Of a stretch of DNA of 64,000 nucleotides, positions 13,201-62,506 are shown piece by piece; position 1 is the stretch's first letter; the number at the start of each line of letters is the position of its first letter. The DNA comes from Romanomermis culicivorax (Eukaryota; Nematoda; Enoplea; Mermithida; Mermithidae), in assembly GCA_963922205.1 (NCBI GenBank), contig CAWUHX010000214.1, positions 310,001 to 374,000 of the forward strand, given 5' to 3'. Below the pieces are notes generated by a model. That model had not been told where the DNA came from. It did not search any database and was given only the letters and a program-made list of their open reading frames with translations. The position numbers were made by a program, and so were the translations under genes.

Positions 13201-16200
13201 CATCTCACTTTTGTTGGTTGAATGATTCCCATGTTGTCTAACGCCAAGCTTATCTGGATTTTTTAGTTGTCAAACGTACATGTTATTGGGGGGAGAGTGC
13301 TATAGGATTCCCGAGAAATCGTCGACCATATGGCCATACGGAAAAATACTGACAATTGTCAACTTTTTTATGAAAAATGTCAATTTTTGAACAAAAAATG
13401 TTAAAAACGTCGATTTTCTCGGTGCTCCGTGTCATGAATACATTTTTTGCGGTCGTATTAGACAAAAATTACTATTTTTTTGAACCATTTTTCGGACTTT
13501 TTGTTAAAAAACAAATTTTTTCCCTTCAGAGACCTCTCCCCCTAAAGTTTTTGGGATCACTGCAGGGTTTTTTCCGCACTGGCCGTTCCCCATCTTGTGG
13601 AAATTAACCAAAAAAATATGCTTCCGTCCCGTGCGGAAAACTCCAAAAATTTCCGCATGACCCCAAAAAATCCGCTCTGTGTGAAATAGGCGAATTTTAG
13701 GGATGGTAAACACGAAGAAAATAATAAGGGAATAAAATAATAGATGTGGAATTAAGGAGGTTCAGAATTTGATGTGGAAGTGCGTAGGAATAATAATAAT
13801 AATACAATGAATAAGGCAAATTAATAAATAGAATAATAGAAATAGAATAAAAAACGTAACGATGAATAATTGGCGATTGGGTGCAGGGGCGGCTAGGTGG
13901 GACGCTGTTAACCATAAACTTTATTATTGACGATAAATCTGACCGATGATATCACATAAAAAAGACACAAAAACGGACTGACTCACTTGGCCAAAAAAAA
14001 GGTACACGATGACAAAAACACAAAATGAATGGTTATGTTAATTTTGCAAATATATACTAAATTATAAAGTGATGCATATGAACAAATGTTATAGAAGATT
14101 GGCGGTTTTGAAAAGGTTTTACTGTAGGTGAAGTAGTGAAGAAAATGTTAGTATCAGTTTAGCTAGCATTTGGTGTTTAACGGCGGCCAGTGTTTTTTTT
14201 GCACAAGCTGTTTTGCACGGTGCGAAAAAAGCGCCAAAAAAGTTTTGCACGCCCAAAAATTTTTTTGTACTATAACTATAAAACTATTAAAAATTAGTGA
14301 TAAGTGAAGCCAGACATGCTAAAGGCCGCGCCTGAGCTTGACAATAAATAATAATGATTATTAAAGCCAGGGCCGTGCGCAGGATTTTTTCATGGGGGGC
14401 GGACTAGGTTTTTTTACTGAATAGTCCCAAAAAATATAGATTTTATACGGATATACTGTGTGCATGCTGCCTCGCCCACCCCCCTTGTGCACGGCCCTGA
14501 TTAAAGCTATAACCCGCGCGAAGAGCCGGAAAATTTTAAGATTTGGACCTACTAAAATGTACCAAAATGCTCCTTTTCTGTATGAAAACACCAAATTTTT
14601 TCCACACTTGATAAATATTTTTTTGCACGGTGCAAAAAACCTGGAAAAAAGTTTTGCACGAGCAGAAAAAGTTTTGCGCAGTGTTTTGCACAGTTAAACA
14701 TAAACAAAAAAAACACTGACAGCGGCCCAAAAAAGTCGCCCGGCTGCCCCCCCCCAGACCTCAGGACGTTACTTGTATGTTGCCAAGGTATATGTTTGGT
14801 TCGTGTACTGAGACCTAGATTAGTTTCCTCGTTTGGATAGTTGCGTGGCTGACGCCTGACTTTATTGGGATCTGCGACAAAATGTCTCCAACAAAATATC
14901 TCCAATATATGATCCCCATACAGAATGTCTCCGTACAAAATATCCCCAACAAAATATCCCCGATAAATGATCAATGAACAAAATGTTCCCGTGCAAAATG
15001 TCTCCAACACAAAATCTCTCCAACAAAACGTCTGTAACAAAATATCCCCAACTTATAGTCCCCGAACAACAAAGATATTTCCATGGTCTCATTGGGGAAG
15101 GAGTTTTCGACTACTGGGAATTCAATGGATGCCGTCACTTTACACAAAATATCCGGGTAAGAAAAAAGCATATTTTCGTGATTTTTTGTCGGAGAGTTTT
15201 CGACCGCGGGGAATTCAATGCATGTGTTCACATTACACAAAAAAATATCCGGGGTGTAAACAAGCGTATTTTCGTGATTTTTTGGTGGAATGTGTTTTCG
15301 ACCCCTGGAAATTCAATGGATATAGTCACTTTACACAAAAGTTATCCTGCGTGAGTAGTATAGAGGGGGGCTTAGTCGTAAAAAGCTCCCCGGCCCATGT
15401 TAAACATAGGCGTTGGACTTGGAAAAAAATTCACAACCTCCCCAACACACAAAACATAGCCGACCATCTTCCGACTATTATGACGTCATTTTTCCAGGTG
15501 GAAAGAAGCATGAAGTCACACCTGGGGTAGAAAGAAAAAAGTTGCCGAAACTTGGCCCACCCACATCTCCGTCAAAACTCAAGATAATGTGCCATATATG
15601 GTGCTTTTCGGAATCAGCTCAATGAGATCTATCGATTAGTACCCAACACGACCCATTTAGGACAAAAGCTCAAATTTTGTGGGGGGGGGGGGTTCTGAAA
15701 ATTTCAATTTACTGTGGGCTCTACTACCAATTATGTTATTTGTTGATATGCATTGCTGCTGCCGCCATCCGCCGCCGCACCTGTTGGGGGGGAGGAGGAA
15801 AGTTCGCCGAGCTAATAAAGCTGAAGCTGCCACTTCAAGCTTCACATAGCTAGCCTATTTGTTAAATGGAATAAACAATCAATATGAGCAATAAGTCATG
15901 CGATATTCAACAGAAGTTGTGTACTCACTCGCACTGATCACAGGATCAGTCCCAGCGCCAGCCGCGAGGAGGCTAGTACACATGTGGCGCCAATACTTTC
16001 ATAGAAAGTACCCACAAATTGGAGAATAGTCATGCAGTACTTGAGTTAAAATTACCAGAAGTCTTGCACTACACATAGTTGCCTGATGTCAGACCGTCAT
16101 TGGCTCCTCACCATGCACCTAACATCCTGCAGACACACACATATATGCTCAACTCCAGGCCGTCATTGGCTCCTCACCATGCACCTGAAACCCAGCATAA

Positions 16201-19200
16201 AGTTGCATGACCCTAGACCGTCAGTGGCTCCTCACCATGCATCCAGTGCCTTGCTAAAAAATCACAAAGTTCAAAAATTGAACTGGCAATTCATTTTTTT
16301 GTACTGCTGAAATATTCTCTTCTTTATGTTAAAGTAAGAATGTCTACACAGTAGACATACAAATATAACTATAGTTGAAAAAATAGATAAATGAAAGGAA
16401 CATCACAAGTCCAATGGTACAGTTGTTATGCCATCTTCTAGGACTTTTCTTTTCATATAAAGGTATGGGAGACCCTGTTTTTCTTGGACATATGTCCAGA
16501 TTTTATTATCTGATAACATTCTGAAACCAATGTTTGTTCGGGTCCAGGGTTTCATTGTTTCCAGTACAGCTGCATACTTTTCAAAGGTGAGGTCATTGAT
16601 CTTTTTCATGCCCCTTTACAGCTGATCTTCTTTTCACCTTCCCCTACCCCAATATATGTGTTTGCTGAAAGACAACACATGGATGTCCCCTGCCACTAAA
16701 CTTTTAGTAAACCAGGTATTCTTTTTTGCTCTGGTTTTGTAACAAACCATTTCGGGTATACTTTATCCATAAATTCTTCCTCAGTTCTGGTTTTACTATA
16801 TCTAAGAGGTTAGATTCAGATATTGTGAGGTAGATGCTGTCAGTGTCTGTTTCCATGCATTGATAATTTGCTGGATCAAAATATTTTTGTAAGACATCAT
16901 AAAAAAATTCCCGCGTTCCAATTTTGGCCCAGTTATAAACTGAAAGGCCAACTACAATGGGAAGGTCAAAGACAATTTCTTTTTTCCTCATGTGGACTTC
17001 ATAACAGTTATCTGTTACACATTTGAGTTTTTTTATGTATGGGCTCAGACCAAATTCAGCAGCTTTTTCATAGTCAGTGTATATAACATCAACATGGCCT
17101 TCTTTATTAGTTAGAGTTTTTCCATAGCCAGTGTTGCCTAGCAGCTTAAATGTATCTGCTGTCATAGACAATTCTGGATTAGCATCTCCTTGACCATGCT
17201 TTGTGACCTTGTCTCTGAATGCTTCAAAGGGTGTGGTTTTGTCAAACTGAAGAACCTCGTGAATTTTTTCTAGGATAAGACCATGTTTTACGAGAAACTG
17301 AATCATTGGGGTCGAGATCATAAGCTCTCTCCCAAAATAGCTGCTGATTAAGTTCTTTCTAGGTTGTTTCAACTGATTGGTCTTTTCTGCATATTGTTTC
17401 ATGAGGTCACCAGCATCATTTTTACCCACTTCAGCATGCTTTATGATTGGTGGGAAGTCAGCATATAGTTCTTTTAGAGAATCTGGTGTATAGATATCTA
17501 CTTTTGCAAAGCCAAATACAGATCCATCCAAAATGGCTCTTTCCATACAATTTTTATCTACATATTTTTGGAACTGGTACCTTCGGAAGAAATGAGGGCA
17601 GTTTTTGCTTCTTTTCTGTATATATTTCTGGTGTTCAGCTTCCCATTGGCACTCCCAAATAGTTATTAAATTATAGCCCAATGATCTTATATAGGCCTCT
17701 TTTTCCAGTCGTTTAGTATGCTCTTCAACACCAGTGTTTTTTTTTGTACAAGCCTCTTTGTACGTGTACAAAGATCGAAAAAAAATTTTGTACGCAAGAT
17801 TTTTTGTTTGTACAGTGTAATAATAGCAGCATGCATAAAGAGCTTAAAAATTTACACAAAAATTATCAAAGAATTTGAGCATAAGTGCATGTAAAAAGTA
17901 CATAAGAATGAAGTTTATAAGTTTTAAAAATTTATTACCATCAACATTTTTAAATTGCGAAAATTTATGGCATTTCAAGTCAGACAATTCAAAAATTCAG
18001 AAGCTCGCTCGTCATCCAAATCAGATTCTTCTGAATCATTTTGGGAATTCTGGGATGTTTCTTTGCGACATATCTTTTTTGCCGGCAACCCTATATTATA
18101 GCAACCACGTTCACTCATTTCTATCCAAATCTTGTAAGAGTCGGACAGGTCCATTTGATCGTAGGGAGGCAAGGTAAGCTTCACACGCATTAAAGAATCA
18201 AGAACTTTGACATGCAGTCTGGCGCGAGCTTTGGTTTTGATATGATGAGCCAAACTGAAAATGTAGAATGAATTGAATTACATTAATAATGCAGGTACAT
18301 AAGATATCATAAGCTTTCGAGTAATAAATTCATTAAATATGCATAACTTACCTAAATCCACGTTCTACAATGCCATTTTGCACATTCATGGAAAGCAAAA
18401 CACAGCACAATTTGCTCAAATTTGGATATGTATCAGTACGGTGTGCGCATATCGAGCAGACGTTCCACCATTCTTCTTCACAGTTTGGTTTGCCGGCCAG
18501 TGGAAATAGAGGAAAGCACTAAAATTAAAAAGAATATATACTTATGAATGAATATGAATAGACTAGACTAGACTTACTTTCAAGTCTTCCCATTTGTTAT
18601 AAATTTCACTATCGTCCAATTCCAAAACAGTGCGGTATGTTTCTTACAAAACTTTAACATTGTTTCGTCCAAATGCAATATGTTCTTCAGCCGATAAAGT
18701 TTCAGATGATTCGTTCGGTGGTACAAAAGTATGGAAGGCTCTCTACAATTTGGAATTGTCAGTTATCAATCGATGGCGCATTCGATTCGAGAGCAGTTCA
18801 ACCAATGCTAGAAAATCAATAAATATTTATATATGTATACACTTTATATACATATTCATAGCATAATGAAAATTACTTATAACTTCACGTTCAACAGCCA
18901 ATCGATTATCGTCTGATACAGTGCCGGGTTTCAAAAGTTTGTCAGTCACAATTTTGTTGACATTTTCTTCAACATCGGTCATGAATTTTGTAGCCATTGG
19001 TCCCTTGATGAAATTTGTGCCCAAATATCGATCATGTAGTAGTGATAAAGCGGTTTCAACCATGCCCTATGATTTTCGATATATACAGAATTATAAGTAC
19101 TATGTATAAACTAATTACGGGAACATCAAATGGATGAACAACATTTGATTGAAATTTCAAACAAAGCTTGTGAATAGGCTCTAACACGTCGCACAAATGA

Positions 19201-22200
19201 AACACTGAAAGTTGATATTTGAAATTGCAAATACGTTTAGGTAATCCCTGAAATTTATATATTTTTAGATAGACTATATGCAACATTTGAAAACGTTAAT
19301 ATAAATTTTTCCTCACTTTTAACTGCGGGTAATTAGTCGAATCTTTTGATTTGAGGTACATCAAAATAGGCAGAGCCATACGCCCTAGAGATTTAACAAC
19401 ATCGAAACGTGACAACCAACTATAAAGCATGAGTAAACTTAAAATTTTTAGTTCATCAATAAGAAAGAAAAATAATTCTAACTGAATATCAAAAATGCAT
19501 TTTGGTGCAATGTAAGTTTCTTCCAATGCCTTACACAATTCTTCTAGCCAGTGTTTTTTTTTTAGCGCGGCGCTAATGAAAATTTTTTGGGCTAATGAAA
19601 AATGATAGTCATTAGCACAGCGCGCTAATGAAAATTTTTGCTGAAACTTTCGAGTTGAAGTTAAAATTTCAAGTGATTCGAAAATGCATTAACATTTAGA
19701 AATTCGCAGCTCAGTAGCATAAGGAAACACTTCTTATAGTACATCATATTAATCCAAATACATGTACTCATGGTTGGATCAAATTCTGGAAAAAATGCCA
19801 TCAGCTATAAATTCAAAAATTTATTATCGCAAGTTTACCGGACATCACAAATATTTTTCGTTGACTAAGAATAACTGTTAATCACACTTTTCTCCCATGT
19901 TGTAACGGCCACGGCTCTATTCTCGCTTCCAAATTTCGACTGCTTTGCTGTTATCAAAACGATCGTACGTGGGGCAATTTAGTCGCAAGGGAACCAAGGA
20001 ATCCAATGTATCAAGTTTAATACGGGCCCGATTTTTCATTTTGATCGCGTGAGCAGTACTGAAATTTCATAAATCAATTCCACATATTTTGTCAATAAAG
20101 AATGCAACATCATTATTAAAGTTAATTTACCTGAAAGCTCTTTCTAGGATGGCATTCTGGGCGTTAAACGAAAGAAGAATTTTGGCCAGGATACTCAATT
20201 TTGGGTACAAGTCCGCTTTTTCTGCACAAATTTGGACTATTTGAATCCAACTTTTTTCACAGTCGACATTTTTGCACGGGGGCAACAAAGTGAAACGCTG
20301 TAAAATTATTATTTACAAACTAAATTGTATCGTATTATTCAAGTTAGATGTATTACTTTAAAGTCATCCCATTCTTGGTATACATCTTCTGAAAACGTGA
20401 ATGGTCCTTTGGAGTAAAACTTGACCAACGTTTTGATTTCGTCTTTTCCATATTCAATCCGGTCAAATCCAGAAATGTCGGCTATTTCTGAATTCGGCAC
20501 AAAAATTCGAAAGGCTTTGAGGATGACGTTGTCATTGCTCAATCGCTCTTTGACTCGTTTGACTATTTTCCGCGTGAAATCTGTAAGGAGAATTTCGTTA
20601 CACCTTGTTTAATCACACAAATTTCGATAATGAACTCATACGCGAGTCGTAATTATAATAATTACCTTTGCTTTCATTTAAAACCTTTTTTCGTGTTGCA
20701 TTCGCGATTGTTTTGCTGGGAATGAGATGCAGAAGTGGACTCATTTGATTGGATATAGAAGTTTCCAACGCGGTCAGATTGCGACCAGTAGATGTAACGT
20801 CCTCTCGCAAAATATCGTCATAAACTGACAAGGCCGATTCAACTTTTGTCTGAATTGCGGTTTCATAAAGACATGAACTGTGTTTATGAAAATGATTTGA
20901 ATACTCACATTCACATCGAACGGGTGTACAATATTATATTGAAAATGCAGCATAAGGCGATTCAAAGGCTCGAGCAAATCAGCTATGGCGTGCAACGAGA
21001 GAACATATCTGTAGTAGAGAATTTTCTTTTTCAGTGCCTGTAAAAAAGAATACTTGTAAAATTATAAAAATGTCGCTTCAAATAAAAGCACATTACTTTC
21101 GCCAGAATGTACTGTGTTTCATCCATGGACTCGATGAGTGTCAGGATGGGCAACATCATCCTGATGATATAAGTGACGACACCATACCGGCTCAACCAGC
21201 TAGAAAAGAGTAAAAATTAACATTAGAAAAAATATCACATATTTTTGTTCCATCAAGCTAACCCTATATTAATATGAATTATTAAATATTAATATGAATT
21301 ATGAACATATCTGTATTCAACAAGATAACTTTAACTCCTACATTCAAAACGTCCTTAATAGCGAGGGCTTCTCTATGTGCCACGCAATGCATATCAATCA
21401 TAGTTGTCAACTGATGTTCTTCACGTAATTTTTTCCCCACTCCATTTCGTTTTCCGAGCATCACTGTGGCCCCGTCGCTGGTGAACAAAACTATCTTCTT
21501 CATATTGATAATATTTCTGTCGAGAAAATTAAGGATTTGATCCACGATCACGTCAGCTGTACCGTAATCAACTTCCAGCATGGCCAAGAAATGAGAAGTT
21601 GCAACGGATTCATTGGCATGAATTGCAGTATAATACAAAATCAAATGTTTATGTTCAGTAATGTCTGTTGATTCGTCTAAGTGCAGATTGAAGCAACAAA
21701 CTTCGCGCAGTTTTTTGATTTCTTTTTTAAACACGCTTTCATTGATGGTGCTCAAAAAATTGTAGGTCGAGAAGCTCGATTTATGACTGCTTGGCAAGTT
21801 GATTTTGTGCTCCGCCGTTTCGCATTGGTCAACAAGAAGATCGTGTAAAGCCAAAGTTCCAGACAAAGAAATATTTTGCTGGACACAAAACAGTACGTTT
21901 TTCATCAATTTTTCTACGCCCTCGTTCGCTTTTTTTGTTAATGTGGAAACAGACTCTTTCAAAAAATTTTTCGAGCGATTTTTCTGCGCCGCAACTGCGT
22001 TTAAATGATCCTGGTCTTTTTGCTCCTGATATTGAAACGCATAAACCCGCCAGGTCGCAAATAACTTTTCGCGTGCCCATGCGTTTCCGACTTTTTCCTC
22101 TTTGCATGTCGGGCAGTAAACTTTTTTACCTGAAATGTATTCATTTGAAAATCTTTGTTTAATTCAAACAAAAATTGATATATCGTTTCTTACTTTTGAG

Positions 22201-25200
22201 ATCAATCAGACGAAGCCAATTGAACTGCTTGAGCCAGTTGTGCTTAAAATCGTACTGACAAATACACGTATCAATTTTGCGTTTTTTGTTGTCCGTGGTA
22301 GTCACTTCCACGTCTACTTCACCGGTTTCAGTATTGCTGATTTCCAACAAATTTTCGACGACGTCTTCATTTACTACTTCCTGTGTTTCTTCGTTTTGAT
22401 GAATAATATCATTTTCGACTGGTTTAGTCAAAAAAGACAGCAAAGATTTCTAAGCCATTTATATAAATGTAAAGTTAATCCAACAAAGCCGATTTTCCAG
22501 TGTCGATTTGGACCCTGATTTTTGTTCCTATTCGAACCCGTACGCCTTACCCGACTTTTTGACAGGCCTAACCTGGAAAATGCAAATTTTTAAAATGAAT
22601 CAAAATATTTTCATCAAAATTGGTAATTCTTCATTAAAAACAAGAATTTGTTAAAAATTTATTAAAAATCATATTTTCTCTTTGACAGAAGACATTTTTA
22701 ATTTAATGCATATATAGATCTATAAATGTCAAGTCAAGAAAATAAAAAAAATAAAATGTATTTAAAACAAAAAAATTAAAAAATTTAATAAAAATTAAAA
22801 ATTCGCTATTTGAATTTGATTATATTGTACAGTAATAAGAAGTCAAGATTTTTTAAAAAGACAAACAAAATTAAATCAGTTAGTTGATGAAAAAAAAGTA
22901 TTCTTTCTCTACCCAATGCCCATAACAATCAAAAGCACAGCACACACACCAAATATGCACAATGCCCAAAATGGAATGTGATGATTTTTGATAACCTGTC
23001 TGTATGACATATTACATATTCTACGGATTGACTATACTATGTGTTTTAATCGAAAATCAACGCGCGCGAAAAATTTATTTCTGTGCAGTGTGCACTAACG
23101 AAAATTGTTCTGCGCTAATGAACTAAATGTTCCATTAGCGCCAGCACTAACGGGAGTGACGCTAAAAAAAAACACTGCTTCTAGCTCATTTCGAGTTGTT
23201 TGCAATGCTAGAAAGCCGACTAATTCTTTCGTTTTTTGTTTGATCGACCAAAAATAACTTGATTCTTTTTCCTACAAATAATTGACAATTAAAACACATA
23301 TAATATTTAAAATAAAAATATATACATTCAAGACATCTTTCATTGCTAGAGCCTCTTTATGCGTGACACAGTGACTGTCAATTAAATGGGCGATGCCTTC
23401 GTCGTTTTTCAATCTTTGCGCCACGCCTTTCTTGACCCCTAACATAACAGACGCACCATCGCTTGTAAATTCAGTCATTTTCTTCAAATTGACACCGTTC
23501 CCAACAAAAAACTCGGTTATTTTTTGGCACAATGATTTAGAATCAGCCTGCTTGATGCGCAAAATCGCAAGAAACGTAGTTTCTGTCGAACAATTGCCAG
23601 CATTCCACAAAGTTGCATACAACATCAAATGCTTTTGCTCCATTATGTCCGTCGATTCATCAACATGTAACGTGAAACAAATAGACTCACACAATCAAGT
23701 AATAATGGCCTAAAACAGAGACGCGTCGATTGCCTTCAAAAATTGATACATCAAAAAATTTGATTTGTTCGAATTCACAATTATATTTGAATTGCTACTG
23801 GTTTCACCAAGATAATGAAGGAATGTGTGCAAATCAGTGGATGTTGATATCCGCTGGTTATGTTGTACAACGAACAAAACTTTTCGTATGATTCGAATAA
23901 CCGCTTCACCATCTTTTTGTTGCGCAACTTTAGCTGCGGTTTTGATGGCATTCAGAGGTCGCGTTTTAATAGCTGCTACCACTTTTGCATGATCTTTATC
24001 CTTTTGTTCGTGATAATTGAAAGCATCAGTTCGCCAAGTAGGCAATATTTTTGATGAACTCCAGATAGTATTGACTTTTTCAGATTTGCAGAAATCGCAA
24101 TAAACTTTCTTTTCATCAAATGATGCAATTTTTAGCCACAGAAATTTTTTGAGCCAAATATGCTTGAAACCATATTGCCGATTCAGAGCTACGGGATTTT
24201 TCGTAGAATTTTCGTCTTGTTGTTCAGTTTCTTCATCACTCAAATTAATTTGATTGACTTCGTTATTCTCTTCATTGACCGTCATGTCGTCATCAAAATC
24301 TTCATTAACCAGTTCGTTTGATGGTGATGAATCTGAATTTTCACTGGGTCATTTGAAAAATTGTAATGGACTTTTTTGAGACATAATCTAAAATAGAGAC
24401 GATTATCTCAAACGAGCAGTTTTATGAATTTGCAATCAATCATACAGCAAATACATATGATTTTTGAATAGATAGGAAGCAAAATACAGCTAGAAATTGG
24501 AACTTAGAAGCAAAAATGAAGATGAGGTATAAAATTTATTCCAGTAAAACAATATTTTTACCTTATCATCAGTAAAAAAATCTTGAAAAAATCTTTGTAC
24601 ATTGTAGAAAGATTGTCAAAAAATCTTTGTACGAGACCAAAAATCTTTGTCCTGTACAAAAAAAACAACACTATCTTTTTTTGTGTTTGCCTTATTAAGT
24701 GTACAGTTGTGGCAATGTCAGTAACACCCATAAAACTCATATACTGTATTGGTATCCTGGCAGTAACCATCCACAGGCAAGTGCTTGGGGCCTATGCATT
24801 TCTCTTTACCATTCCCCAGATGCTGAATGAAATGGGCATTTTCCCAGCTTTCTTTTTCAAGCCATTCAATTGAGACTTTTTTAGCACTATTTATTTTATG
24901 GAACTTATTTTCTTTGAGAACCCAGTGATCAAAAAAGCCTGTTGGTGTTGGCATTGACTGAGCCCATAAGTACAGTGCATTAAAGTCCAAGCCGATTATA
25001 GTTTTGACAGGTTTTTTGGGGTTATTTTGTATGTATGTTTGATCTTTCACTGCTAAATGGATCATTACCATTGCCAAGCCACCATGCATACTTGACTTTA
25101 GAGAATAATGTAGATTTTTTGATTTTTCTGAAAAAAGAGAATACTGGATGTCTGGTATACTTTTGAACAAGTATCTTTCAGTTACACCAGGCAAAGACAT

Positions 25201-28200
25201 CGCTTCTCTAAAGATGTCAATATGGCATTAGTCCCAATAAAGCTTTGCCATTATGGTGACTGCTTCTAGGAATGGAATGACATCTCTAAGGTTATAAAAT
25301 ATTAGAAAATCCATCAGTGTTTGCATTTGATTCTCTGTCCAGTACCTTTGACAGATTTCATAGTCATCTTTAGTAATGTGTTCTTTCCTAAGATTACTAT
25401 AAAAACCTTCAGGTGGTGGTAATGAAGTTTCATTCAATTTTTCAAAAGAGTCCACATACTCATATGGGAATTTGGCCTTAGCAAGAGAAGCCCCATATGC
25501 TCTCATAAATGTGTCAAGGCTGAAGCCAGGGGCTAAATATAATGATATGTCCAAGAATTTAGGATTTTCAGTAGAGAGACATAAAAATGCACCATTTCCT
25601 AAAATTGCTTTTGGCCATGGACTTTCCTTATTTTCCCTCACTTGTTGAACAAGCTTTGGAAAAATATTTCTCTTGATAAGATTGATATCATACTTTCCAG
25701 AGTTAAATCCCAGGCATGTTAGCTGAGTGCAATACCTCCCAAGTCGATTTTTAACACCAATGATTGAGTTCAAATACCCTTTTTGATGTCTTAAATCTTT
25801 TTTGCTATCATATAATTCTTGTACATATGCTCTGCAACTCGATATCATAGAGTTTAAATGTTCCAAAACTGACTTATATTGATTAGACAAAATTTCATTT
25901 TGCCTAAAGCTAATCAATTCAAGACGCTCTAGCTTTTTTTGTACTAAAATATCAGGATCATTCTCCACAAAGCTAATTGCGGTGAACCCAGGAACATTTG
26001 TTGCAACAGCACATGAAACTAGTTGGCGTTCAGTTATAAGAGTTAATTTTTCCGAATTCTGATGAGGTTTTTTGGCAAGGATGGCTTCAAAGTCATACAC
26101 AGCATAGAATGGACAAAAATGTTGAGTTTCATTCACAAAAATCTCCAACTCTTTTAACTGGTCAAATTTTGACTTTTTGACCATATATACACCAGGTGGG
26201 AATTTATGTACAGTTTCTCCCTCATGACAGTGATTTTTGGCATGGTCATTAAGTTTTTCCTTTTTTCTGAATAGTCTGTTACAAGAAAGACATGAATATC
26301 TCTTTGCATATTGATCTAAATTTACAATATAGCTGTAATGAGCTTTTCCATTTTCAACAAAAGAAACATCCAAATTAAGAAGTTTGTTATATTTTTGTAC
26401 TACATTTTTCCAGCACACTGCTATTTCTTTTACTATGTCTAAATGGAAAACCTGTACATCTATATGAAATAATTCGTCAATCATTTCTAGATCAGTGTAG
26501 GGAACTCCAGAAAACAATTTTATAACTTCAGGAATTTTTTTTCTCTTGACAATATTTGATAAAAAGTTTGAAAACAATATTCTTATTTTCAAAACTTCCA
26601 GTAAGGCATTGAGCAATGCAGCGAAACAAGCAAAGATTATCAGTAAATTTATTTCTTTGACTATCTTGGGTCATACACAGGAGGTTATTTTGTTGGTGAG
26701 AAACTATTCCTGGCAAGCAAAAATTTTTACACCCTACCACAAAATTTTTTTGAGGTATAACATAAAATTCAATATTGCTTATAAGATATAAAGCCCACTT
26801 TGTATCTGGGCAAGTAAATTTTTCCTCAAAATCAATATTCCCCATAGTTTCAACTAATTGACTCAAATCCTGTCCATCTTTTATGAGAACTGGTTGACTT
26901 AGGATTGTGAAGTTAATGTGACATGCATACCAGTATTTCAACTCACCTGATTCTCGGTTTTTTAATAGGCATCCAATCGCACCATTAATTTTAAAGCACT
27001 CTTTTTCACTTTTGTAAATATCGTCTAGCAATACTTTGACATTGCCATGAACAGCTCCCCATTGATAATTGTATGTATGGTGCAACATATTTAATGTTGA
27101 CCTGTTTGTTCTAATCAGGGACCAATAATTCAATTAAATCTGGTGGTGATTCTGGATCATCAGAAATGATTTGTCCAGTTGTACTAGGTATTTCACATCC
27201 ATCCACATTCATTGGAAGGTTTTCTTCTGGTTTGATCATTAAACAACTGCCACTGTGCTTTGAGGCAAGTAAGTCTTTTGAGTTGGTAAAGTCAGTGGTA
27301 CAATATAGACAGTGGTTGCCCTCATGTTGCTTCTGATAGTGTTTCTTCAGGCCTTTTACCTGTGTGAAGACTGAAGCTCACTGAGGACACCTGTACCGGC
27401 AACCTTGATTAACTGGTCTTACATGTTCATTTAGATATCTCTCTTCACCAAACTGCCCTCCACATTCGACACAATTGATTTGTTTCTCCATAATAATCAA
27501 TAATAACATAAAATTTAAAACATAAAGTTTCAAAGTTCACCTTTCTTCAAGTTCTTAGAAATCACTAATGAGCTTTCTCAAATTTTTCCTGCTTTTATAC
27601 TCTTCTGGGTAGGATTACTGTAGGCTGCATAGGAAGACCAAAACTTGTGCATCAATTCCATCAAATGTCACATCTTTCTCACTTTTTCTGATGATTTATA
27701 CTGAAATAAACTGGTTTTTTCTTATCTCACTTTTTGATCTGTCTTTCAAGTCAAATTTAATCAAAATGCACATATAAAAACTTTCTTGCTTAGGTCACTT
27801 TTCTTTAGACAAGCAGTCACCTTATGAGTCATTTTCTCAACTACCTTTGTATAAAAGTATTTCTTGCCTTTTAGCTAGCCTTGATTCACAACAATGAGCA
27901 TGTGAATCACTTGAGCTTCTAATACTGTAATTCACTGCTCTTTCAATTTGATCTCTTTGCTACTTTCACAAGTGGCAAAACATGCTGGACTTAACCATCT
28001 TTTCATCAACATAAAATGTTTCATATGGTGGGAAGGTTTTCAATCAATAAAGTTTAGGTAAACAAATAACAACTGGCTCTCTTTCAAAATTGATTGCTGG
28101 CTATAAAAGTTGGCTGGCTCTCTAAAATGAAGAAAAAACATGGATGCTAACCACACTATTGAACATTTTCTAGCTTGCCTGGAAAGGCATAATGGGAAAA

Positions 28201-31200
28201 CAGTTTTTACTGAGATATGGTATTGTGTGGCTTTTTTGGCTGTACTAACAATACTGACTCTATTGAAATTGTTGAGAGAATATTTAGAAAACCTGTTCTC
28301 AAAAAAACCTGGGACTAGTACAAAAAGTGTCAGATTCAATACTGCAGATGTATAAATAAAAGTTTTACAGCAGCATGCTTAAGACAAATGGATAAGCTCT
28401 TTGAAAGCATATACTTTAACCCAAGCACAGAGTATTGTAGTGTTCATAACCTGTTAGGACAGGCAAAAGCTAGTAATCCCAGGGTCACCCTGCATTCAGT
28501 TAAGGAATGGTTACAAAAACAGCCAACCTATACTGTACACAAGTATGCTAGGTGCCATTACCCCAGGAATAATGTTCTAGTTACTCATATTGATGAACAG
28601 TAGCAAATGGATCTCGCAGACCTTAGTTCACTTGCCAGGCATAATGATGGATACAAATTTCTTTTAAATTGTATAGATGTCCTGTCAAAATTTGCATGGT
28701 CTGTACCCTTGAAAATAAAAATACATCATCTATTTTGCATGCCTTCCAAACAATTTTGAAATCTGGTTGAAAGCCACAAAAAATACAGACTGATGCTGGT
28801 ACAGAGTTTACAAACAAAGCCTTCCAGGCCTTATTAAAAAAACTTGGCATTAGTTTTTTCATAACTGCCAGTAAAACTAAGGCTAGCATTGTTGAGCAGT
28901 TGAATAGAACTTTGAAGGAAAGAATGTGGCGTCATTTTACTCAAAATAATACATACAAGTACCTAAACATTCTACCCCACTTGCTAAACTCTTACAACTC
29001 CACTAGGCATAGGACCACAGGTGTTGCTCCCATTGATGTTATTGATGATGTAAATTGTTTAAAAGCTTTTCAGGAAATGTAAGTCTAGTGTACAATTTAA
29101 ACTGGTCCCTGGTGACAAGGTACGCATAAGCAAAGTCAAAAGGACTTTTGAGAAGGGTTACACTCCCAATTGGAGTGATGAAGTTTTTGTGATTTGTGAG
29201 CAAAAAGCTAGATATCCCCCTGTATATACCGTAGAAGATCAGCTGGGAGAAGTCATACAGGGTGTATTTTATGAGCCAGAACTACAGAAAGTTGATGAGA
29301 TTACAGATATCTGCATTATAGAAAAGATTATACGAAACAGAAAAAGGGCTGGGAAAACTGAATACTTTGTTAAATGGAAGGGTCACCCAGATAAATTCAA
29401 TAATTGGGTGACAGATTTGGTAAAACTATAGCTACAGTATGAAAACTAAACAATGATTTGCAGGTCTAAAAGTTTTTACCTGTGCCTGACATTTCAGTAT
29501 ACAAGCAACTTCATTATTATTTTAATCATTTAATTAACTAGAATGGAGTCAAAGAAAGTTAAAGCTCCTATTGAACTTTGCGCTCGAAACTTGCCGAGAG
29601 CCATGTATCCCTTAATGATTGAACTGTGTTATTTTTGTCAAAAGAATAGCTCTGAATGGGAGTGTTTCCAGTTGTCTCAGGGTAAAACATTCTCTACTAT
29701 TGAAATGTGCCCAAAATGTCTGGAATACAATAAGGCATTGCAGGAAGCTGGCACAGCTGTACTAAAGAAGCAGCTGGCTGATAGACAGGCACTCATCTTC
29801 AAGCCTACAGTAAATTAATGAAATGTGATTTGCAAGTATTCTGTAACATTTTTCATGTATATAAGTTGTAAATTCTCCTTAGTCTTCAGTCTTCAAACTT
29901 CTCCTTCTACAGTGTAGTCACTTTTTCAAAATGGAGGGTATTTTTTTTAATGTTGCACTGAGTATGGGCACTTTTCTCAAAAGACCTTATACTCAAAAAG
30001 ATGTGGCCAGGTATGCGTCATATTTTTGGGATCAAATAAATGATGGCTACAAGCACAAATGGAAGATTTTAGCTAAAGTAGCTAATGAGCTGGATCATCA
30101 TACAGGCAAAAGAAAACTGGCTGGGTTTTAGCATTTTGCCAAGGCACTAGAGGGTTTGATGAAAACCTGCAGTGCTGGACCCCTTTTGTTTGAGATCTGG
30201 ATGAATCTGAGTCCAGAAGCCATGCAAAAATACAATGATGAAGGTATAGATATACCCTATTAATGTTGTGATAATTGTAATTAAATATTGTAATGAAAAA
30301 TGAAAGACAAGAAAAAAATTAAGCGAAAAAACAAATTAAAGCACAATTGCTGGTATTCCCAGCATGTTGCATGTTATAAAAGTTGAGAATTTATAAAAGA
30401 AAAAAACATGGCTGTAAAATCTAATCACCCTTTTACATGTATTGTTGCTGGCCCTACAAAAGCTGGTAAAACAACCTTTGTAAAGAATTCAATACTAAAT
30501 GTGAAGTACTTGATTGAACCAGTTCCTGAACATATTCACTGGTTCTTTAGTGAGAAGCAGCCAGTCTACAATGACTTACCTGGAAGGGTCAACTTCTATC
30601 AGGGGTTACCTGACATGAACTTGATTAGAAAGCCCAGTCCTGTATCCCAGCTTGTTATACTAGCTGATCTGATGCAGGAAATGGCAAAAAATAAGCATCT
30701 GGACATTCTTTCTACTGGTGGATGTCATCACATGAATGTGTCTGTGATACACATTGTTCAAAATGTTTTCTTCGAGGGTCTAAGAACATTTAGAATAAAT
30801 GCAGATTACCTTGTTTTGATGAAACATCCTGCAGATAGGCTCCAAGTAAAAACTTTGGCAAGACAGTTGTTTCCTGATAAAGTAAAGTACTTTCTCGAGT
30901 CTTTTGAAGATGCCACATTTAAACCATACAGTTATATAATTATTGATCTTTCTCAAACAACACCTGATAAACTTAGACTCAGAGCTGATATTTTCTCAAA
31001 ATTTTCCACAATATATGTGTCAAAAGTATAAAAGTTGTCTATTCTTGAGTTGTATAGTCAAAATGCCTTGTGATCATCTTAGACATAATATTGATTACAT
31101 CATGGTACTAGCTAAGGCTAAACCCAAGCAACGTAAAGCTATTATTAGCACCGCTGATTGTGAACTGATACTTTGTTTGTGTGAATGTATACTCAGCTTC

Positions 31201-34200
31201 CTCGAAGGCAATATAAAAGTTGACAAAAATACCTTGAATAAATTAAGTTCCCACAAGGGACATTTACGAGTATTAGCAGATGAGAAAACAAGTCTCAGCA
31301 AATGACGAGACATTCTAGAATGAAAAGGTGGATTTTTGCCTGTATTGTTAGCACTAATTTTAGGAATAGCTGGACAATTACTAGCTGATGCAATTATAAA
31401 AAGATGATGCATACAAATAAAATGATTCTTGTACGGCATGACATTGGTCATAAGGAAGACATAACAGCTAATGTAATGACTGCTTTGGATAAAGAAATGA
31501 ATGACATTTTAACTAATAAGTCATTGGCCTCTGACAGAAAGATAATCTTATACAATCAAGTGTTGCACAGATATAGGCAGGCTACACAGGATCAAACCAG
31601 ACCTTATGAGTTGACTATTAGTGAACCTGTTGCAGGACACCCCATTCCTGATCTGGAAGAAATAACACTGAAGCAAAAAAAGCCAGACACTGCTGAAAGC
31701 ACTGTTGATATTACCCCGAGAAAAGATGTGCTGTATGAAAAAACTATGAAAATTGTACCAAAAAAGTGGCATAGTCAAGCTAAAATGTTATATGATTATG
31801 CTAAAGATAATCCACACATGGAGTCATCAGATAAAGGAGAAATGATTCTGAAAGGCACCAAAATAAGTGGAACCAATATTGTTGATTTGATTCCTGATGT
31901 GGCAAGAGTTGGTCCGAGTCGCCAGCAAGCAATAGGGTCAGAGTTGTTTGTAAAGAACCTCTTAAAGGAGAATGTGCCTCATACATGTAATTGGGGGGGG
32001 GAAGTGCTATGGGAACCCCCCAGAAATTATCAACCATATGGCTAGCCATTGGGCGACCCCCTCAGGATTTTCCAATCCTATAGCTAGCCATATGGTGCCC
32101 TAGGGACCCCCATAGTTTTAGTCAGAAAAATACTGAAAAATGTCATTTTTTCCATGAAAAATGTCAATTTTTGAACAAAAATGGTTAAAAACGTCAATTT
32201 TCTCAGCACTTCGCGCCATAAGTACATATTTTATCATTTTTTAAACAAAAATTACTAATTTTTAAACTGTTTTTTCGGACATTTTTCATGGAAAAAATCA
32301 GATTTTTTTCCTTCAGGGACCCCTCCCCCCAAAATTTTGGGAATTACTGACCCCCAGTCCCAAAAAAGTCCTCCAACCCCCCCCCCCAGACTTCAGAGCT
32401 CCATTACATGTATGATGTGCCTTGAGATATTTTTGTAAATAAGTCCAGGCTGAATGTTGGAGGTGAAAGTGGACCCGTAGATGATAAAAAAATTAAGGCA
32501 CCCAAAAGCATTACACCAAGGTCTAGATGGTTAGAATTTGGAAAAGTATAAAAGTTGTTTTTACAGCATTTTGTAAACTTATAAAGATGAGACAATACTT
32601 CAATCCAGAAGATTATGCAACTTGGCTTCAGTACTATAATGAACAAGCTGAACAAACTGGCTATGGTTTCAAAGGCTTCAAAGGCACTCCATATCAGCGT
32701 GGAGGAGGTCTGGGAAGTTTCTTTAGATTGTTATTCAGAATGGCCATTCCTGTTATTAAGTCAGCTGCTGGCCATATTGGTAAGCAAGCACTATCCACTG
32801 GTGCACATATTGATTTAGCGGAAGGTCCATCTATACAAGAATCTCTAGAAGAACATGGCCGAGCAGCACTCTCCAAGTTGGCCCACAGTGGGGGAGATGC
32901 CTTGCAGACTGGAAGAGGCTTGGGGACTAGACCAAAAGGTATAAAAGTTGAGAAAAATAATATATTCTCAAAGAAAAAGAGAAGGAAACATGGCTCTAAT
33001 TGATACAATTTCTAGTATTAGTACAAAGTCCAAATTGGACTTTTTCACTGTACCTCCCACACAAGTAGTAATTAAATGAGGCTACTGGGATGAAGTTAAC
33101 CAGATAAATCCTATCACAAATGATGGTCCATATGAATTTCATATACCTCCAGATCCTCACATGATTCAGCTTAGCAAAAATTATCTGTACATGACCTTGA
33201 AAATTACTTACACAGTTCCTGCTGGTGGAGCTGCACCAGTAATTGCACCTATCAATCTGATTGATAAAGCATTTTTCAGACAAGTAAAGCTCTTCCTGAA
33301 TAGTCATCTCATTCATGATTGCGGGGATAAGTATGCCTACAGAGCATTCTTTGAAACTGATTTATATGCTGGTTTTCATACTAAAAATAGCCACTTACAG
33401 TCTTCTTTTTATACTATGGAAGCTGATCCTAAAATAGATACTCTTGATTATCAGGGCTTTAAAAACAAGGTAAAGCACTTTAAAAACGGTCGAAAAGTTG
33501 AAATAACAGCTCCTCTTCATATTTATGTTCTAATGCAAGATCAATATTTACTCAGCAATACTGAGCTCAAACTGGACCTGATCTGCAATAGTAATCCATT
33601 TGTTTTACAGTGCCCAGATGGTGATGCAGAAAACAAAAAATTGGAAGTTTCCCAGATGAAACTCTTCATCAGGAAAGTTGAAGTTCTTGACAGTGTTGGA
33701 TTGGCTCTGGAAAAAGCAATGTCAAAGACACCAGTCAAGTACCCAATTAGACGAGTCCAAATGGTGAATCTTCATATTGCTACAATGTACAATGCAATCT
33801 ACACGTCTGAATACTCTATTCACTGCTCAGTTGCTATGTAGGATGATTATAGCATGTGTCAATGTGGATGCATAACATGGAGAAATAAAAAAATCTCCAT
33901 TTAATTTTAAATGTTACAGTATAAATGAAGTCAAAGTTGTCTCTGGTGGTCAAGCTTTTCCAGCCACTTCATTAAGACTTGATTTTGCCAACAACAAATA
34001 TATTCGAGTGTATGATCAGCTCTTTGAAACTCTAGACATAGCTGAAGATAACAAAGAGAATGGCATTGGCAGACTTAATTTTAAAAATGGACAGTGCTAC
34101 TTTGCCTTCAATTTTACACCTGATGAAGATGATAGTGGACATTGGGACTTGATTAGAGATGGTTCCACAAGTATAGAATTGACGTTTGCTGATGCAGCTA

Positions 34201-37200
34201 TAGAAGTTATTGTTTATGCAGAATTTCACAATTTGATTATGATCGATAAAAATAGGCACGTCTTTAATGACTATACTGCATGAATACCTCTGAAATCTAC
34301 ATCTTGGTCAATATAGATCAAGCTCTCAGACAAATCTCCAATGGGGCATTCCCTATAGACTGTTTACCACCTCTTGACACTGTACCTGCAGCATTAGTTG
34401 TAAATCTGGACAAGCAGGATGAACCTGGTTCACACTGGGTAGCTCTGTTTGTTGATAAAAAACATGCATGTTGTTTTTTTGACAGTTATGGCCTGAAACC
34501 ACCTCAACAGCTTAGGAATTACACAAAGACTATATCTACTTCTTACAAGTGCAATACCAAATGTGTTCAACAGTACCTGACTGCTAGATGTGGTCAGTTA
34601 TGTGTATACTTTCTTGTGTGGATGGTTAGAGGTATAAGTATGAGAGATATTGCTGGTAGTTTGGAACAAGGCTATGCTGATGAATTTGTCACTGGCTTCA
34701 TCAACAGTCTCTTTAGAACAAATACTCCCATATATGATGATGTATTTTTATTTGAACAGCTCAACAGAATATAAAAGTTAGTTTCTACCATAATGACGTA
34801 TTGAAAAATGGATTTTTCACAGTTTTATGTAACATTACCGAGCAATGCTCAGAGTGATCCGAGTAACTCGGCTTCAAATTTTAGTATCAAGTTGCCTCAT
34901 AGATTAATTTTGCAAGGTGAATGGGAATGTGCACTTTGTGAATTCATCTACCCAAATACGTAGTTCAATATAACACCTAGTGATAATGTAATAAAATTTT
35001 ATGATCTTCAGACCAATACTAGGCAATTACTAAAAATACCTTCTACAAGGTATGAATCTATAATAGATTTAATTGAAGCTATTCAACAATCCATCAGGTT
35101 GTTGAGTGAACAGGAAAAAGTTCCATATAATGAGTTTATCGAATTTTCATACAGGAGATTAGCCAGAGCAGTTGTCCTGAAAGTGAACTTGACTAGAATC
35201 AAGAGGATAAAATTAAGTGATCCTTTACTCTACCTGTTGGGCTTTGAGAAATCACAACTAGAAACAACTTCATCTGAAAAATTGAAAATTGCTGCTGCAC
35301 ACCCTGCTGATATGAAGGCTGCTCTTGAAACTATGTATGTTTATTGTAACATCATTGAACAACAGATTGCTGGTGATATTTTAGGCCCCCTCCTCCCTAT
35401 TGTTAATATAGATGGAGCTTTTGGTGACATTATAGATAAGATATATATAGCTCCTCACTACTTGCCTGTACTTGTAAAAGATATCGATTCTATCAAAATT
35501 TCAATTAGAACAGATCAAGACAAACCTATAAAATTTGTCACTGGTAAAACAACTGTGAAGTTACACTTTAGAAAGCAAAGTTTATTCTAAAAATGCAAGT
35601 ACAAAACATTACTATCACAGCTGAACTTGGCTGTGGACTCACTTTGGACTCACTTAATAAAAAAATTGGATGGCTCTAAACTGACAATGAGAAAATTCAG
35701 GTCACTGATTTGGCGCCTCCATGATCCAAAATGTTGTCTACTATTGTACGAAAATGGGAAGCTCATATGCGTGGGCATTAAGGCAACTCAGCAGGCTGTG
35801 AAAAGTATAGATTATGCAGCAGAAATACTGCTCAAACTCAGTTATCAGCCAAGACCCAGGGAATTTAAAATGTGCAATGTTGTTGGGTCATACGCCCTAG
35901 ATCACTGTATCAATGTTGTGGAATTCTATAACGCTCATAAGGGTCAATGTGATTATTCTCCTGAATTATTTCCTGCACTGAAATATACAATTAACAAGCA
36001 AGGCCTATGTGCATTGATTTTTCACAATGGTAAAGTTATTACAGGAGCAAAGACCTACAGTGAACTGCAGAAGAACTTCAAAGAGTTACTTGTCAATTTT
36101 TGAACTTGATGGTAGAAAGCTGAAACATTCATTCTCTGCAATGGAGCCTTGACTTATGTGGGAGAATTCCTATGCATCCTGTGCATTATGCTGTGTGTAG
36201 ATATGTTCAAGCTGGAAGATATAGAGAATTGGGTGCTGATCCTTCACCAATTAAAAGAACGAAAAGGCTGATGAAGAAAGAATCCACTTGGGATCACAAC
36301 TATACTAGGAAAAAGTAAAAAAAACAAAAAAAACAGGTATTGTGGGTACTTTCTATGAAAGTATTGGCGCCACATGTGTGCTAGCCTCCTCGTGGCTGGC
36401 GCTGGGACTGATCCTGTGATCAGTGCGAGTGAGTACACAATTTCTGTTGATATATCGCATGACTTATTGCTCATATTGATTGTTTATTCCATTTAACAAA
36501 TAGGCTAGCTATGTAAAGCTTGAAGCGGCAGCTTCAGCTTTATTAGCTAGGCGAACTTCCCTCCTCCCCCCCCCCCCCCCAACAGGCGCCGCGGCAGTGG
36601 CGGATGGCGGCAGCGGCAATGCAAGGTAACAAATAACATGAATGGTAGGGCCCACACTAAATTGAAATTTTCAGAACCCCCCCCCCCCGCACAAAATTTG
36701 AGCTTTTGTCCTAAATGGGTCGTGTTGGGTACCAATCGATAGATCTCATTGAGCTGATTCTGAAAAGCACCATATATGGCACATTATCTTGAGTTTTGAG
36801 GGAGATGTGGGTGGGCCAAGTTTCGGCAACTTTTTTTCTACCCCAGGTGTGACGTCATGCTCTTTTCCAGCAGGAAAAATGACGTCATAATAGTCGGAAG
36901 ATGGTCGGCTATGTTTTGTGTGTCGGGGATGTTGTGAATTTTTTTCCAAGTCCAACGCCTATGTTTAACATGGGCCGGGGAGCTTTTTACGACTAAGCCC
37001 CCCCCTCTATACTACTTGCGTGTAAACAAGCGTATTTCCATGAATTTTTGGTGGAAGGATTTTCGACTGGGAGGAATTCAATGGATGCGGTCATCATTAC
37101 TTTACACAAAACTTATCCTGAGTGTAAACAAATGGATTGCTGCAATTTTTTGGGCTGAGGGGTTTTCGGTATGGAGAATCGATAGATGCAGTTACATCAC

Positions 37201-58269: not shown

Positions 58270-58896
58270 ATGGCTGACAACAGCAATGAAGAAGACGGGG
58301 ATCAAGCCCCAATGCGTTTAGACGAAATTGGTCTGGTGGATAATAATACGCCGACCCTGCGAGAAATATACGAGTCCGAAAGTGGTAAAATTGGTTTTAT
58401 ATCTTTGAATAATGAAATTTTTAGGAAAAAGACATTAATTAATATTTGCATCGAACTCGAGACGAAAAATGCTAATGATATTTTGCCCAGTAATATATCC
58501 ATGCTAAATAACAACACATTAAAACTCCATTTCGAGACACCAGAAAAGCATGATCAAGCCGTAATGATGAAATATAATATATTCAACTTAAAAATAGAAG
58601 TAATCAAGCCACGCCTATCTCGATTTACAAAAATTCTAAACTTAGGACATTTATATGGTAATACCATACCCGAATATGTTAAACATTCTGAAGTAGAAAA
58701 TTGGCTAATGATTAAATTTCCTGGCTTTAAAATTGCTGAAGATAATAATACAAAATTTTTGCCAATCAAAGACTGCAAATTGATCCATTCAAATGTTTGC
58801 GCTATTAAAATCGAGATTACACCAGAAATTAAAATCCCCAGTGTTGTTTGGTTTCATGTTCACCCAATGATTAAACCTATTAAATTACAACTCTAA
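58270..58896 (+). CDS. non-LTR retrotransposon ORF1, N-terminal part
   Basis: 208 codons from ATG 58270 to TAA. Polar acidic N-terminus, then an alpha/beta region with LETKNANDILPSNIS and IEVIKPRLSRFTKILNLGHLYG, in keeping with the RNA-binding ORF1 domains of many LINEs, but I do not recognise a precise family. It is followed 22 nt later, in another frame, by a CCHC zinc knuckle, so ORF1 has been broken by a frame change near 58896-58918. The stretch from 58394 on is repeated exactly at 61041 onwards. Confidence 0.7.
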   Translation: MADNSNEEDGDQAPMRLDEIGLVDNNTPTLREIYESESGKIGFISLNNEIFRKKTLINICIELETKNANDILPSNISMLNNNTLKLHFETPEKHDQAVMMKYNIFNLKIEVIKPRLSRFTKILNLGHLYGNTIPEYVKHSEVENWLMIKFPGFKIAEDNNTKFLPIKDCKLIHSNVCAIKIEITPEIKIPSVVWFHVHPMIKPIKLQL

Positions 58897-58917
58897 TTTT
58901 ATGGCATGGAGACTTAA

Positions 58918-59241
58918 TGCCGAAAATGTATGCAGCCGGGCCACATGCCAAAAGATTGCAGTGTTACTTACGAAAATCTTCCTAAACCACGGACAAACAT
59001 CAAATCCTACGCATCTGTTACCACGACAACACAAGTACGTAATCCAACAACTTCAGAAAGTTCATCAATAGCAAGTGTAAACTCGGATTTACCAATTTCA
59101 AAAATTAATGTCGTAGAAAAACAAAACACGTCGATGAATAATTACCCCCATCTATTTAATTTCATGTTGATGTCGAAAAAAATGGGACTACATACCGTTT
59201 TATACCTACAAATGTATTTTGTTGAACCATTTCCCCCGTAA
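58918..59241 (+). pseudogene. LINE ORF1 middle part: CCHC zinc knuckle and linker
   Basis: CRKCMQPGHMPKDC (58918-58959) is a C-x2-C-x4-H-x4-C knuckle directly after a TAA (58915-58917). It is followed by a serine/threonine-rich linker of about 65 residues. The frame closes at 59241, where the NADAR domain continues in a different frame, so a second frame change lies at about 59205-59222. Confidence 0.75.
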
Positions 59242-59767
59242 ATTTACCATCCATGGTCAAACTTATAAGAGTACTGAACACTATCTATTTGCCCAAAAAG
59301 CCAGCGCAATGAATCTTCCAGAGAAAGAAAATCAAATTATTAATTGTGATAACGCAGCCATAGCGAAGCGACTTGGCGAACAATTTGATTGGAACAACAC
59401 AACAACACCTTGGGCCGAATTTGCTTCTAGGACATTGTACGAGGCAAATTGGTATAAATATTCCCAGTCAAAGCATTTACATCGTGCCTTATTTAATACG
59501 CTCAATTACGAATTAGTCCAAACAAACCCATTTGATCCATATTGGGGTATCGGTATACGAATGGATGATCCTCGTATTAACAAGCCCAATAATTGGGGAG
59601 CCAATAATTTCGGCAAAATTTTGATGAAGTTACGGGACAAGATGCGATGGAATGTTGATTTTCAAAAAGAAGCAGAGCCGTCAACTCGTTTTTTGAATGG
59701 GCAAGTTAAAAGAGGCCCAGAAGTTTTATCACCTGATGTAAATGATAGTAAGCAGCCTACAATCTAA
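59219..59767 (+). CDS. NADAR (YbiA-like) domain of the LINE ORF1
   Basis: About 182 codons. The NADAR family's motifs are all present: F-x-I-x-G-x-x-Y-K-S-T-E-H-Y-x-x-AQKA (about 59237-59312), A-K-R-L-G (about 59363), PWAEFASRTLYEANWYKYSQ (about 59409-59468), DPYWGIG (about 59536-59556) and NNWGANNFGKILMKLR (about 59588-59635). Known NADAR enzymes are N-glycosidases; E. coli YbiA acts on a riboflavin-pathway intermediate and others remove ADP-ribose from guanine. Here it lies between the zinc knuckle and the endonuclease ORF, so it is the C-terminal domain of ORF1. The key E of the TEHY motif is retained. Its role in the retrotransposon is unknown. Confidence 0.9.
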   Translation: MLNHFPRKFTIHGQTYKSTEHYLFAQKASAMNLPEKENQIINCDNAAIAKRLGEQFDWNNTTTPWAEFASRTLYEANWYKYSQSKHLHRALFNTLNYELVQTNPFDPYWGIGIRMDDPRINKPNNWGANNFGKILMKLRDKMRWNVDFQKEAEPSTRFLNGQVKRGPEVLSPDVNDSKQPTI

Positions 59768-59859
59768 GAATTCTGGTCAGAATTTTCTAACCCTGCATTG
59801 ATTCAAACTTTTTGACTTAGCTTTTTTATTTTTTTCCATTAACTGCTACGCGAGGGAAT

Positions 59860-60741: not shown

Positions 60742-60982
60742 GAAAATTTCAAAGTAAACATAAAGCAGGATTTTATATATCTCAAAAAGAAAATTGATAA
60801 GAAGAATTTTAAAATAAGGAAGAATTGTGAAAACAAAATGAATGAGATAAGAGGAAAATTGAAATGTAATAATCAGGATCTGGGATTAAGAAAATAATAT
60901 AGAAAAGTTAAGAATGAGTATAAAATAGTGATCAAAGGTCTAATTAATGAAAAGCTGAGTAAAACTCATTACCAAGACATTC

Positions 60983-61543
60983 TTGCTGATAGATGTTCAC
61001 TTGCAACTGCAAAAGTTTTGCAAAAAAGGTCTGCTGAGAGGTTTTATATCTTTGAATAATGAAATTTTTAGGAAAAAGACATTAATTAATATTTGCATCG
61101 AACTCGAGACGAAAAATGCTAATGATATTTTGCCCAGTAATATATCCATGCTAAATAACAACACATTAAAACTCCATTTCGAGACACCAGAAAAGCATGA
61201 TCAAGCCGTAATGATGAAATATAATATATTCAACTTAAAAATAGAAGTAATCAAGCCACGCCTATCTCGATTTACAAAAATTCTAAACTTAGGACATTTA
61301 TATGGTAATACCATACCCGAATATGTTAAACATTCTGAAGTAGAAAATTGGCTAATGATTAAATTTCCTGGCTTTAAAATTGCTGAAGATAATAATACAA
61401 AATTTTTGCCAATCAAAGACTGCAAATTGATCCATTCAAATGTTTGCGCTATTAAAATCGAGATTACACCAGAAATTAAAATCCCCAGTGTTGTTTGGTT
61501 TCATGTTCACCCAATGATTAAACCTATTAAATTACAACTCTAA
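60983..61543 (+). pseudogene. ORF1 part, second copy, fused to ORF2 sequence
   Basis: Same as ORF1 from 58394 on, but its first 19 codons come from the ORF2 region before the junction at 61040. The chimeric start is a by-product of the duplication. Confidence 0.85.
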
Positions 61544-61564
61544 TTTTATGGCATGGAGACTTAA

Positions 61565-62414: not shown

Positions 62415-62506
62415 GAATTCTGGTCAGAATTTTCTAACCCTGCATTGATTCAAACTTTTTGACTTAGCTTTTTTATTTTTTTCCATTAACTGCTACGCGA
62501 GGGAAT

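Follow-up and report, generated by a model that had tools for sequence, protein, structure and literature searches.

Polintons of the nematode Romanomermis culicivorax carry genes for a diverged two-lobe TATA-binding protein (TBP), and a TATA box, TATAAAAG, recurs upstream of many of their other genes. Judged from sequence, the element-borne TBP probably starts transcription from the element's own boxes. That an element of ∼ 21 kb would hold a self-contained promoter system, with a diverged TBP lineage of its own and TATA boxes on most genes, we regard as an evenly balanced proposition. We know of no account of what activates the capsid genes of Polintons; a TBP dedicated to the element, with boxes to match, would give an answer open to direct test.

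A TBP gene inside a Polinton

The window (the whole 64,000-nucleotide stretch of DNA that was analysed) contains a Polinton whose terminal inverted repeats (TIRs) have four main arms that are 94–97% complementary (Table 1). The rve, A32 and DJR matches each fall below curated cut-offs; its identity as a Polinton rests on the gene set taken as a whole, together with the repeats and the evidence of sister copies. The rve fragment (PF00665) gave 23.6 bits against a cut-off of 32.6 (E = 6.5e-5), and a DJR-like domain was seen in the capsid protein of sister copy L045 (E = 3.7e-4); the chromodomain (PF00385) scored above its cut-off (E = 5.5e-8). The protease profile PF00770 was also above cut-off in L045 and below it in L033. 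Of 14 sister copies, 8 encode the major capsid protein in a single ORF of 429–444 aa. No Pfam polymerase domain matched the three broken polymerase pieces of the window that were scanned, and PF03175 identified a polymerase in the related lineage-E element L031 (E = 2.3e-23). The window and element pieces scanned, part of the ORFs, contained no TFIIB or polymerase-subunit domain.

Table 1. Coordinates of the Polinton features in the window
Feature	Position	Strand	Basis or remark
Left TIR, clearest part	15359..16017	.	inverted arms
Fragments of polymerase gene, separated by other sequence	16704..27536	-	position and by eye
TATAAAAG box upstream of polymerase gene	27592..27599	-	
TATAAAAG, target gene uncertain	27850..27857	+	
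TATAAAAG upstream of small ORF before integrase	28102..28109	+	
Parts of integrase (rve core fragment, chromodomain)	28771..29431	+	PF00665, PF00385
TATAAAAG box of ATPase gene	30375..30382	+	second octamer copy at 30392
A32-like packaging ATPase	30408..31031	+	PF04665 (Pox_A32), 20.8 bits, narrowly under the 22.8 cut-off; E = 3e-4
TATAAAAG box of small gene between ATPase and X218	31027..31034	+	
TATAAAAG box ahead of X218, inside small gene	31212..31219	+	
X218 gene	31389..32045	+	ORF, sister-copy comparison
TATAAAAG box of X158	32547..32554	+	
X158, small conserved gene	32587..33003	+	tblastn match in sister copies, ORFs
TATAAAAG box of major capsid gene, within X158 coding sequence	32940..32947	+	
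Major capsid protein, two open pieces	33080..34283	+	sister-copy ORF
Adenain-like C5 protease	34280..34774	+	PF00770, E = 7.4e-5, 22.9 bits, cut-off 21.3
TATAAAAG box of penton gene, overlaps protease stop	34770..34777	+	
Penton (minor capsid) gene	34808..35590	+	longer uninterrupted homologues in sister copies
TBP gene, broken copy	35593..36103	+	PF00352 and solved-TBP matches, translation
Right TIR, clearest part	36340..37009	.	inverted arms

The capsid, protease and penton genes lie upstream of the TBP gene, which starts immediately 3′ of penton (itself with a stop near its start) and ends about 240 bp short of the inner edge of the right TIR. Gene order and the inverted arms confirm the location given in an earlier note on this DNA: inside the Polinton, past the capsid genes and ahead of the right TIR. 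That note had read both lobes of a TBP core here, and this holds: PF00352 matched the translated region significantly, in two stretches (96.9 bits, cut-off 22.9, E = 6.1e-28), ORF 35591–36103 matched solved TBPs (1c9b, E = 3.9e-20), and the motifs that it quoted are found in the translation. The gene's identity as TBP stands but its intactness does not: the first ∼ 25 codons, in the ATG frame from 35593 to about 35670, sit in a different frame from the remaining lobes, which follow the frame of ORF 35591–36103. By eye, the ATG-frame N-terminus resembles that of uninterrupted sister copies. An AlphaFold2 model of the open part (147 residues, pLDDT 84.9, pTM 0.65) matched plant, human, yeast and archaeal TBPs, with E values of at most 0.001 for 44 PDB chains and Foldseek query TM scores of 0.86 to 6uep, 0.85 to 1jfi and 0.84 to 1cdw.

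Copies in the genome and linkage to the capsid genes

The 359 Mb genome contains at least 201 non-host TBP loci, the union of three genome searches. The PF00352 search (150 scored of 438 candidates) gave 110 merged loci, including the split host TBP on C95; the window TBP gave 150 rows among the matches listed, merging into 145 loci; and a lineage-E TBP contributed 57 rows that belonged to lineages D or E or were otherwise new. A stop-free frame of at least 170 aa over about residues 26–163 was present in 62 of the 145 merged loci (hand count among the matches listed, window excluded; judged by frame, start codons unchecked). At least five lineages, 30–36% identical to host TBP, can be distinguished: A (window-like), B, C, D and E, plus a broken F. 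Identity to A is 60–66% for B, 36% for C, 31% for D and 34% for E, and lineages C, D and E match PF00352 at 141–150 bits, in two stretches each. C181 (L006), considered as a host TBP paralogue, was rejected as a broken lineage-E copy. Broken lineage-E pieces also lie, several apiece, on C5, C73, C34 and C118.

Window-type Polinton genes in the same order, with TBP behind penton, were found in 14 of 20 examined stretches of 9–10 kb. In the other six the window genes matched TBP alone or, in L039, also opposite-strand capsid fragments. Polymerase-like ORFs were recognized by eye in L031, L032, L037 and L043, and in L031 also by PF03175.

The earlier note had asked whether other Polintons of the genome carry the same gene, and they do: 96 of the 119 merged A–C (window-like) capsid loci have a same-strand TBP at most 4.5 kb downstream, among the matches listed. 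For capsid loci longer than 600 nt, a TBP lies within 4.5 kb downstream in 80 of 95 and within 15 kb in 83 of 95, leaving 12 that have no TBP within 15 kb, again among the matches listed. Conversely, a listed capsid lies upstream of 96 of 173 TBP loci (two genome searches pooled, among the matches listed). A diverged capsid family (39–40% identity, at least 27 loci) had a TBP nearby in 0 of 27 cases among the matches listed, including 20 kb on either side.

Selection, age and origin

The TBP is, as far as its codons allow us to judge, under purifying selection and an old gene of the Polinton. By the Nei–Gojobori method its dN/dS is 0.11–0.37 in the eight pairs whose dS is above zero and under 1.3; between families, dS is at least 1.87 wherever it could be computed. 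The TBP outpaces the capsid protein in rate of change and equals or exceeds the protease. Equal scores and identities of copies on several contigs suggest that the elements moved recently. In two pairs the dS of TBP is several-fold above that of the neighbouring genes (0.31 against 0.07–0.09 in L042/L045, 0.99 against 0.13–0.23 in L036/L040), suggesting that the TBP end was exchanged between elements.

In a careful tree lineages A–C form one clade (100/98) and D/E a second with the metagenome proteins P0001, P0052 and P0122 (100/97), both separate from host and other TBPs. The union of the two clades has a support of 89/79, which is not secure. In AU tests, grouping A–C with host TBP was weakly rejected (p = 0.038) and grouping all lineages with host TBP was not (p = 0.124); long branches make the placement unsure. 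The separation from host TBP that was to be sought in a tree is seen in the topology, but the AU test does not enforce it for all lineages. There may have been one ancient capture or two, and the TBP may have been taken long ago from some eukaryote.

These data bear on the idea that a recent retrocopy of host TBP landed in one Polinton, a single-insertion outcome that the earlier note had named as fatal to its reading. The Polinton TBP is indeed intronless, and the host TBP on C95 appears by eye to be split into exons. However, the at least 201 loci, their low identity to host TBP, the identical gene position in diverged families, the between-family dS, the trees and the AU result for A–C given above all speak against a recent retrocopy; on these comparisons we consider it refuted, with next to no chance of being right.

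The closest database proteins among the matches listed are P0001, P0052 and P0122, which come without genomic context. A single-sequence search of the protein database with the window TBP found no relatives; in the profile searches the best 120 of 648 and the best 120 of 2410 matches were examined. Scans of viral contigs with the window TBP, TBP alignments A1, A3, A4 and A6, capsid A7, ATPase A9 and penton A10 found none, and are insensitive to distant TBPs because A6 (cellular-type TBPs) picked up no giant-virus TBP either. A quick tree had placed P0073 in a 15-row set with the Polinton proteins (SH-aLRT 95); this grouping was dropped, as the careful tree puts P0073 with P0123 and P0124. These three metagenome TBPs (171–221 aa) form a clade of their own (100/98) apart from the sampled cellular TBPs.

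Conserved and rebuilt surfaces

The Polinton TBP is core-only, with two lobes and without an N-terminal tail. On the accepted roles and yeast numbering of the intercalating Phe and Asn residues, all four Phe are present in lineages C, D and E, and three plus a Tyr in A and B. The Tyr replaces the second Phe of lobe 1, as the earlier note had stated and the translation and sister copies confirm. The two saddle Asn are present in every lineage row compared, and A, B and C have Val in place of the Thr of lobe 1.

In five representatives, 62 of 104 saddle cells, at 21 positions that we take to contact DNA, are identical to host TBP. The convex helices are identical in only 12 of 82 and 10 of 70 cells, compared with 284 of 860 for the whole core. 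Calculated per protein over 10 Polinton rows, identity is 6–16% in the convex helices and 28–35% elsewhere. Thirteen other TBP-family proteins, several of them metagenomic, served as controls; in nine, the convex helices (51–67%) resemble the rest (51–70%), and four have weaker convex helices (P0102 25% against 52%, P0078 35% against 55%, P0085 41% against 64%, P0068 45% against 57%), P0102 being about as skewed as the Polinton TBPs. On these alignments, rebuilding of the convex helices is strongest in the Polinton TBPs and not unique to them.

The best conserved class is the TFIIB-contact stirrup, identical to the host in 21 of 25 cells (five representatives). With the binding residues kept, we infer that the Polinton TBP would bind both TATA DNA and TFIIB. 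The stirrup also argues against a role as a DNA-bending protein for genome packaging or replication rather than transcription, as do the TATA boxes that stand upstream of genes; the position of TBP as the last gene of the capsid cluster would suit such a role, which we consider very unlikely.

TATA-like boxes

Counted over the late regions of the window copy and 14 further loci, 15 copies in all, TATAAAAG occurs 67 times in sense and never in antisense orientation, against 3.9 expected from first-order Markov resampling, a comparison that gives no p-value because the copies are related. The boxes lie ahead of the X158, capsid and penton genes in families A, B and C, sit inside the ends of upstream genes and are retained across indels. 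Gene starts were measured at 22 places, leaving out the family A capsid start. At 14 of them TATAAAAG is 41–63 nt upstream of the first ATG; at seven, all penton, it is 11–23 nt upstream of the first ATG of the ORF, and there the conserved penton N-terminus, by eye, starts downstream of that ATG; one, X158 of L045, has no box. Individual boxes are absent from some copies (L041, L044). The window holds 11 TATAAAAG octamers, 10 of them at 27592–34777, with 5.0 expected across its whole length.

No TATAAAAG was found within 110 nt of the TBP start, or before the protease, in families A and B. TATAAATA precedes TBP in families C and D, and in the lineage D elements L037 and L038 boxes of the TATAAATA type stand ahead of both TBP and a minus-strand ORF. 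As a single-copy control, an element without TBP was examined over 4.9 kb that include its penton, X158 and capsid genes, and no TATAAAAG was present there.

The recurrence of TATAAAAG upstream of the element's genes bears out the expectation of TATA boxes matching its TBP. Two further parts of the original proposal, that the TBP acts solely on late capsid genes and that it can work without its host counterpart, are not supported by these data. The boxes of the window also precede the ATPase and polymerase genes, and a 'late genes only' reading was dropped. TATAAAAG is a canonical box, of a kind that cellular TBP binds well, and host TBP may therefore suffice.

A model for transcription of the element

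The earlier note's central idea, a promoter-recognition factor brought by the element itself, survives as a probable reading in the form of a Polinton-owned, non-recent TBP with matching boxes, late specificity and host independence being conjecture. In our model the element would thus supply both the factor and the promoters: its TBP would bind the TATAAAAG boxes, bend them, and recruit TFIIB and host RNA polymerase II. Partners of host TBP include TFIIA, TAFs, Mot1 and NC2. Since the convex surface of the element TBP no longer seems to fit host partners, it may escape the controls placed on cellular TBP. A first round of transcription could be served by host TBP, with amplification by the element's own.

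The canonical nature of the boxes would equally allow host TBP to serve them while the element TBP interferes with the host, titrating TFIIB or occupying cellular TATA promoters, and a changed convex surface with a kept stirrup could also make a dominant-negative form. Yet TBP and TATAAAAG occur together in families A–C and are both missing from the one TBP-less copy sampled, so that a partner of the boxes fits better than a decoy; we think host interference unlikely.

Relation to known systems

Cellular TBP and TBP-related factors share with the Polinton TBP the two PF00352 lobes, the saddle Phe and Asn residues, the PELFP stirrup and the predicted fold. The Polinton protein differs in being 30–36% identical to host TBP (6–16% in the convex helices), in having no N-terminal tail and in being encoded within an integrated virus-like element. 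Giant-virus and asfar-like virus TBP-like proteins have the TBP fold in common with it, at 12–20% identity in 11 structural matches with E 0.001 or better; the genomes of those viruses are far larger. CpV-BQ1 is reported to encode a TBP and two TFIIB proteins (PMC12085832).

The β/γ-herpesvirus vTBPs (EBV BcRF1, KSHV ORF24) are likewise virus-encoded TBP-like proteins with boxes at viral genes (PMC4893493, PMC12529657). They act with further viral factors to recognise late boxes of the TATT type, and ORF24 carries an additional DNA-binding domain at its C-terminus. By comparison, the Polinton TBP is core-only, and the recurring box is TATAAAAG, not TATT, on genes of several kinds.

With known Polintons/Mavericks the elements share TIRs, a chromodomain piece, a C5-like protease and penton, and probably integrase pieces, an A32-like ATPase and a DJR-like capsid; they differ by the extra TBP gene and the repeated TATAAAAG boxes. 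No Polinton TBP was found in the open-access literature searched. The terms TATA and TBP are absent from the main texts of PMC11071308, PMC8097293 and PMC4028283; transcription and promoter are also absent from PMC11071308 and PMC4028283, and PMC8097293 mentions promoter.

The gene connects Polintons with the TBPs that herpes-, giant and asfar-like viruses encode. If our reading is true, few known DNA elements with a true two-lobe TBP would be as small as these Polintons. Their protein would be a TBP that has escaped TFIID-type control in nature, and thereby a natural experiment in which of its surfaces transcription requires.

Other mobile sequences in the window

ORFs resembling hAT transposases lie at 21282–24348, within the Polinton span amid the polymerase pieces (by eye). 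Further downstream, a LINE-like ORF run at 58270–60741 is repeated about 2.65 kb away at 60959–63388; three ORFs give the same translation in both runs, and the first agrees over most of its length.
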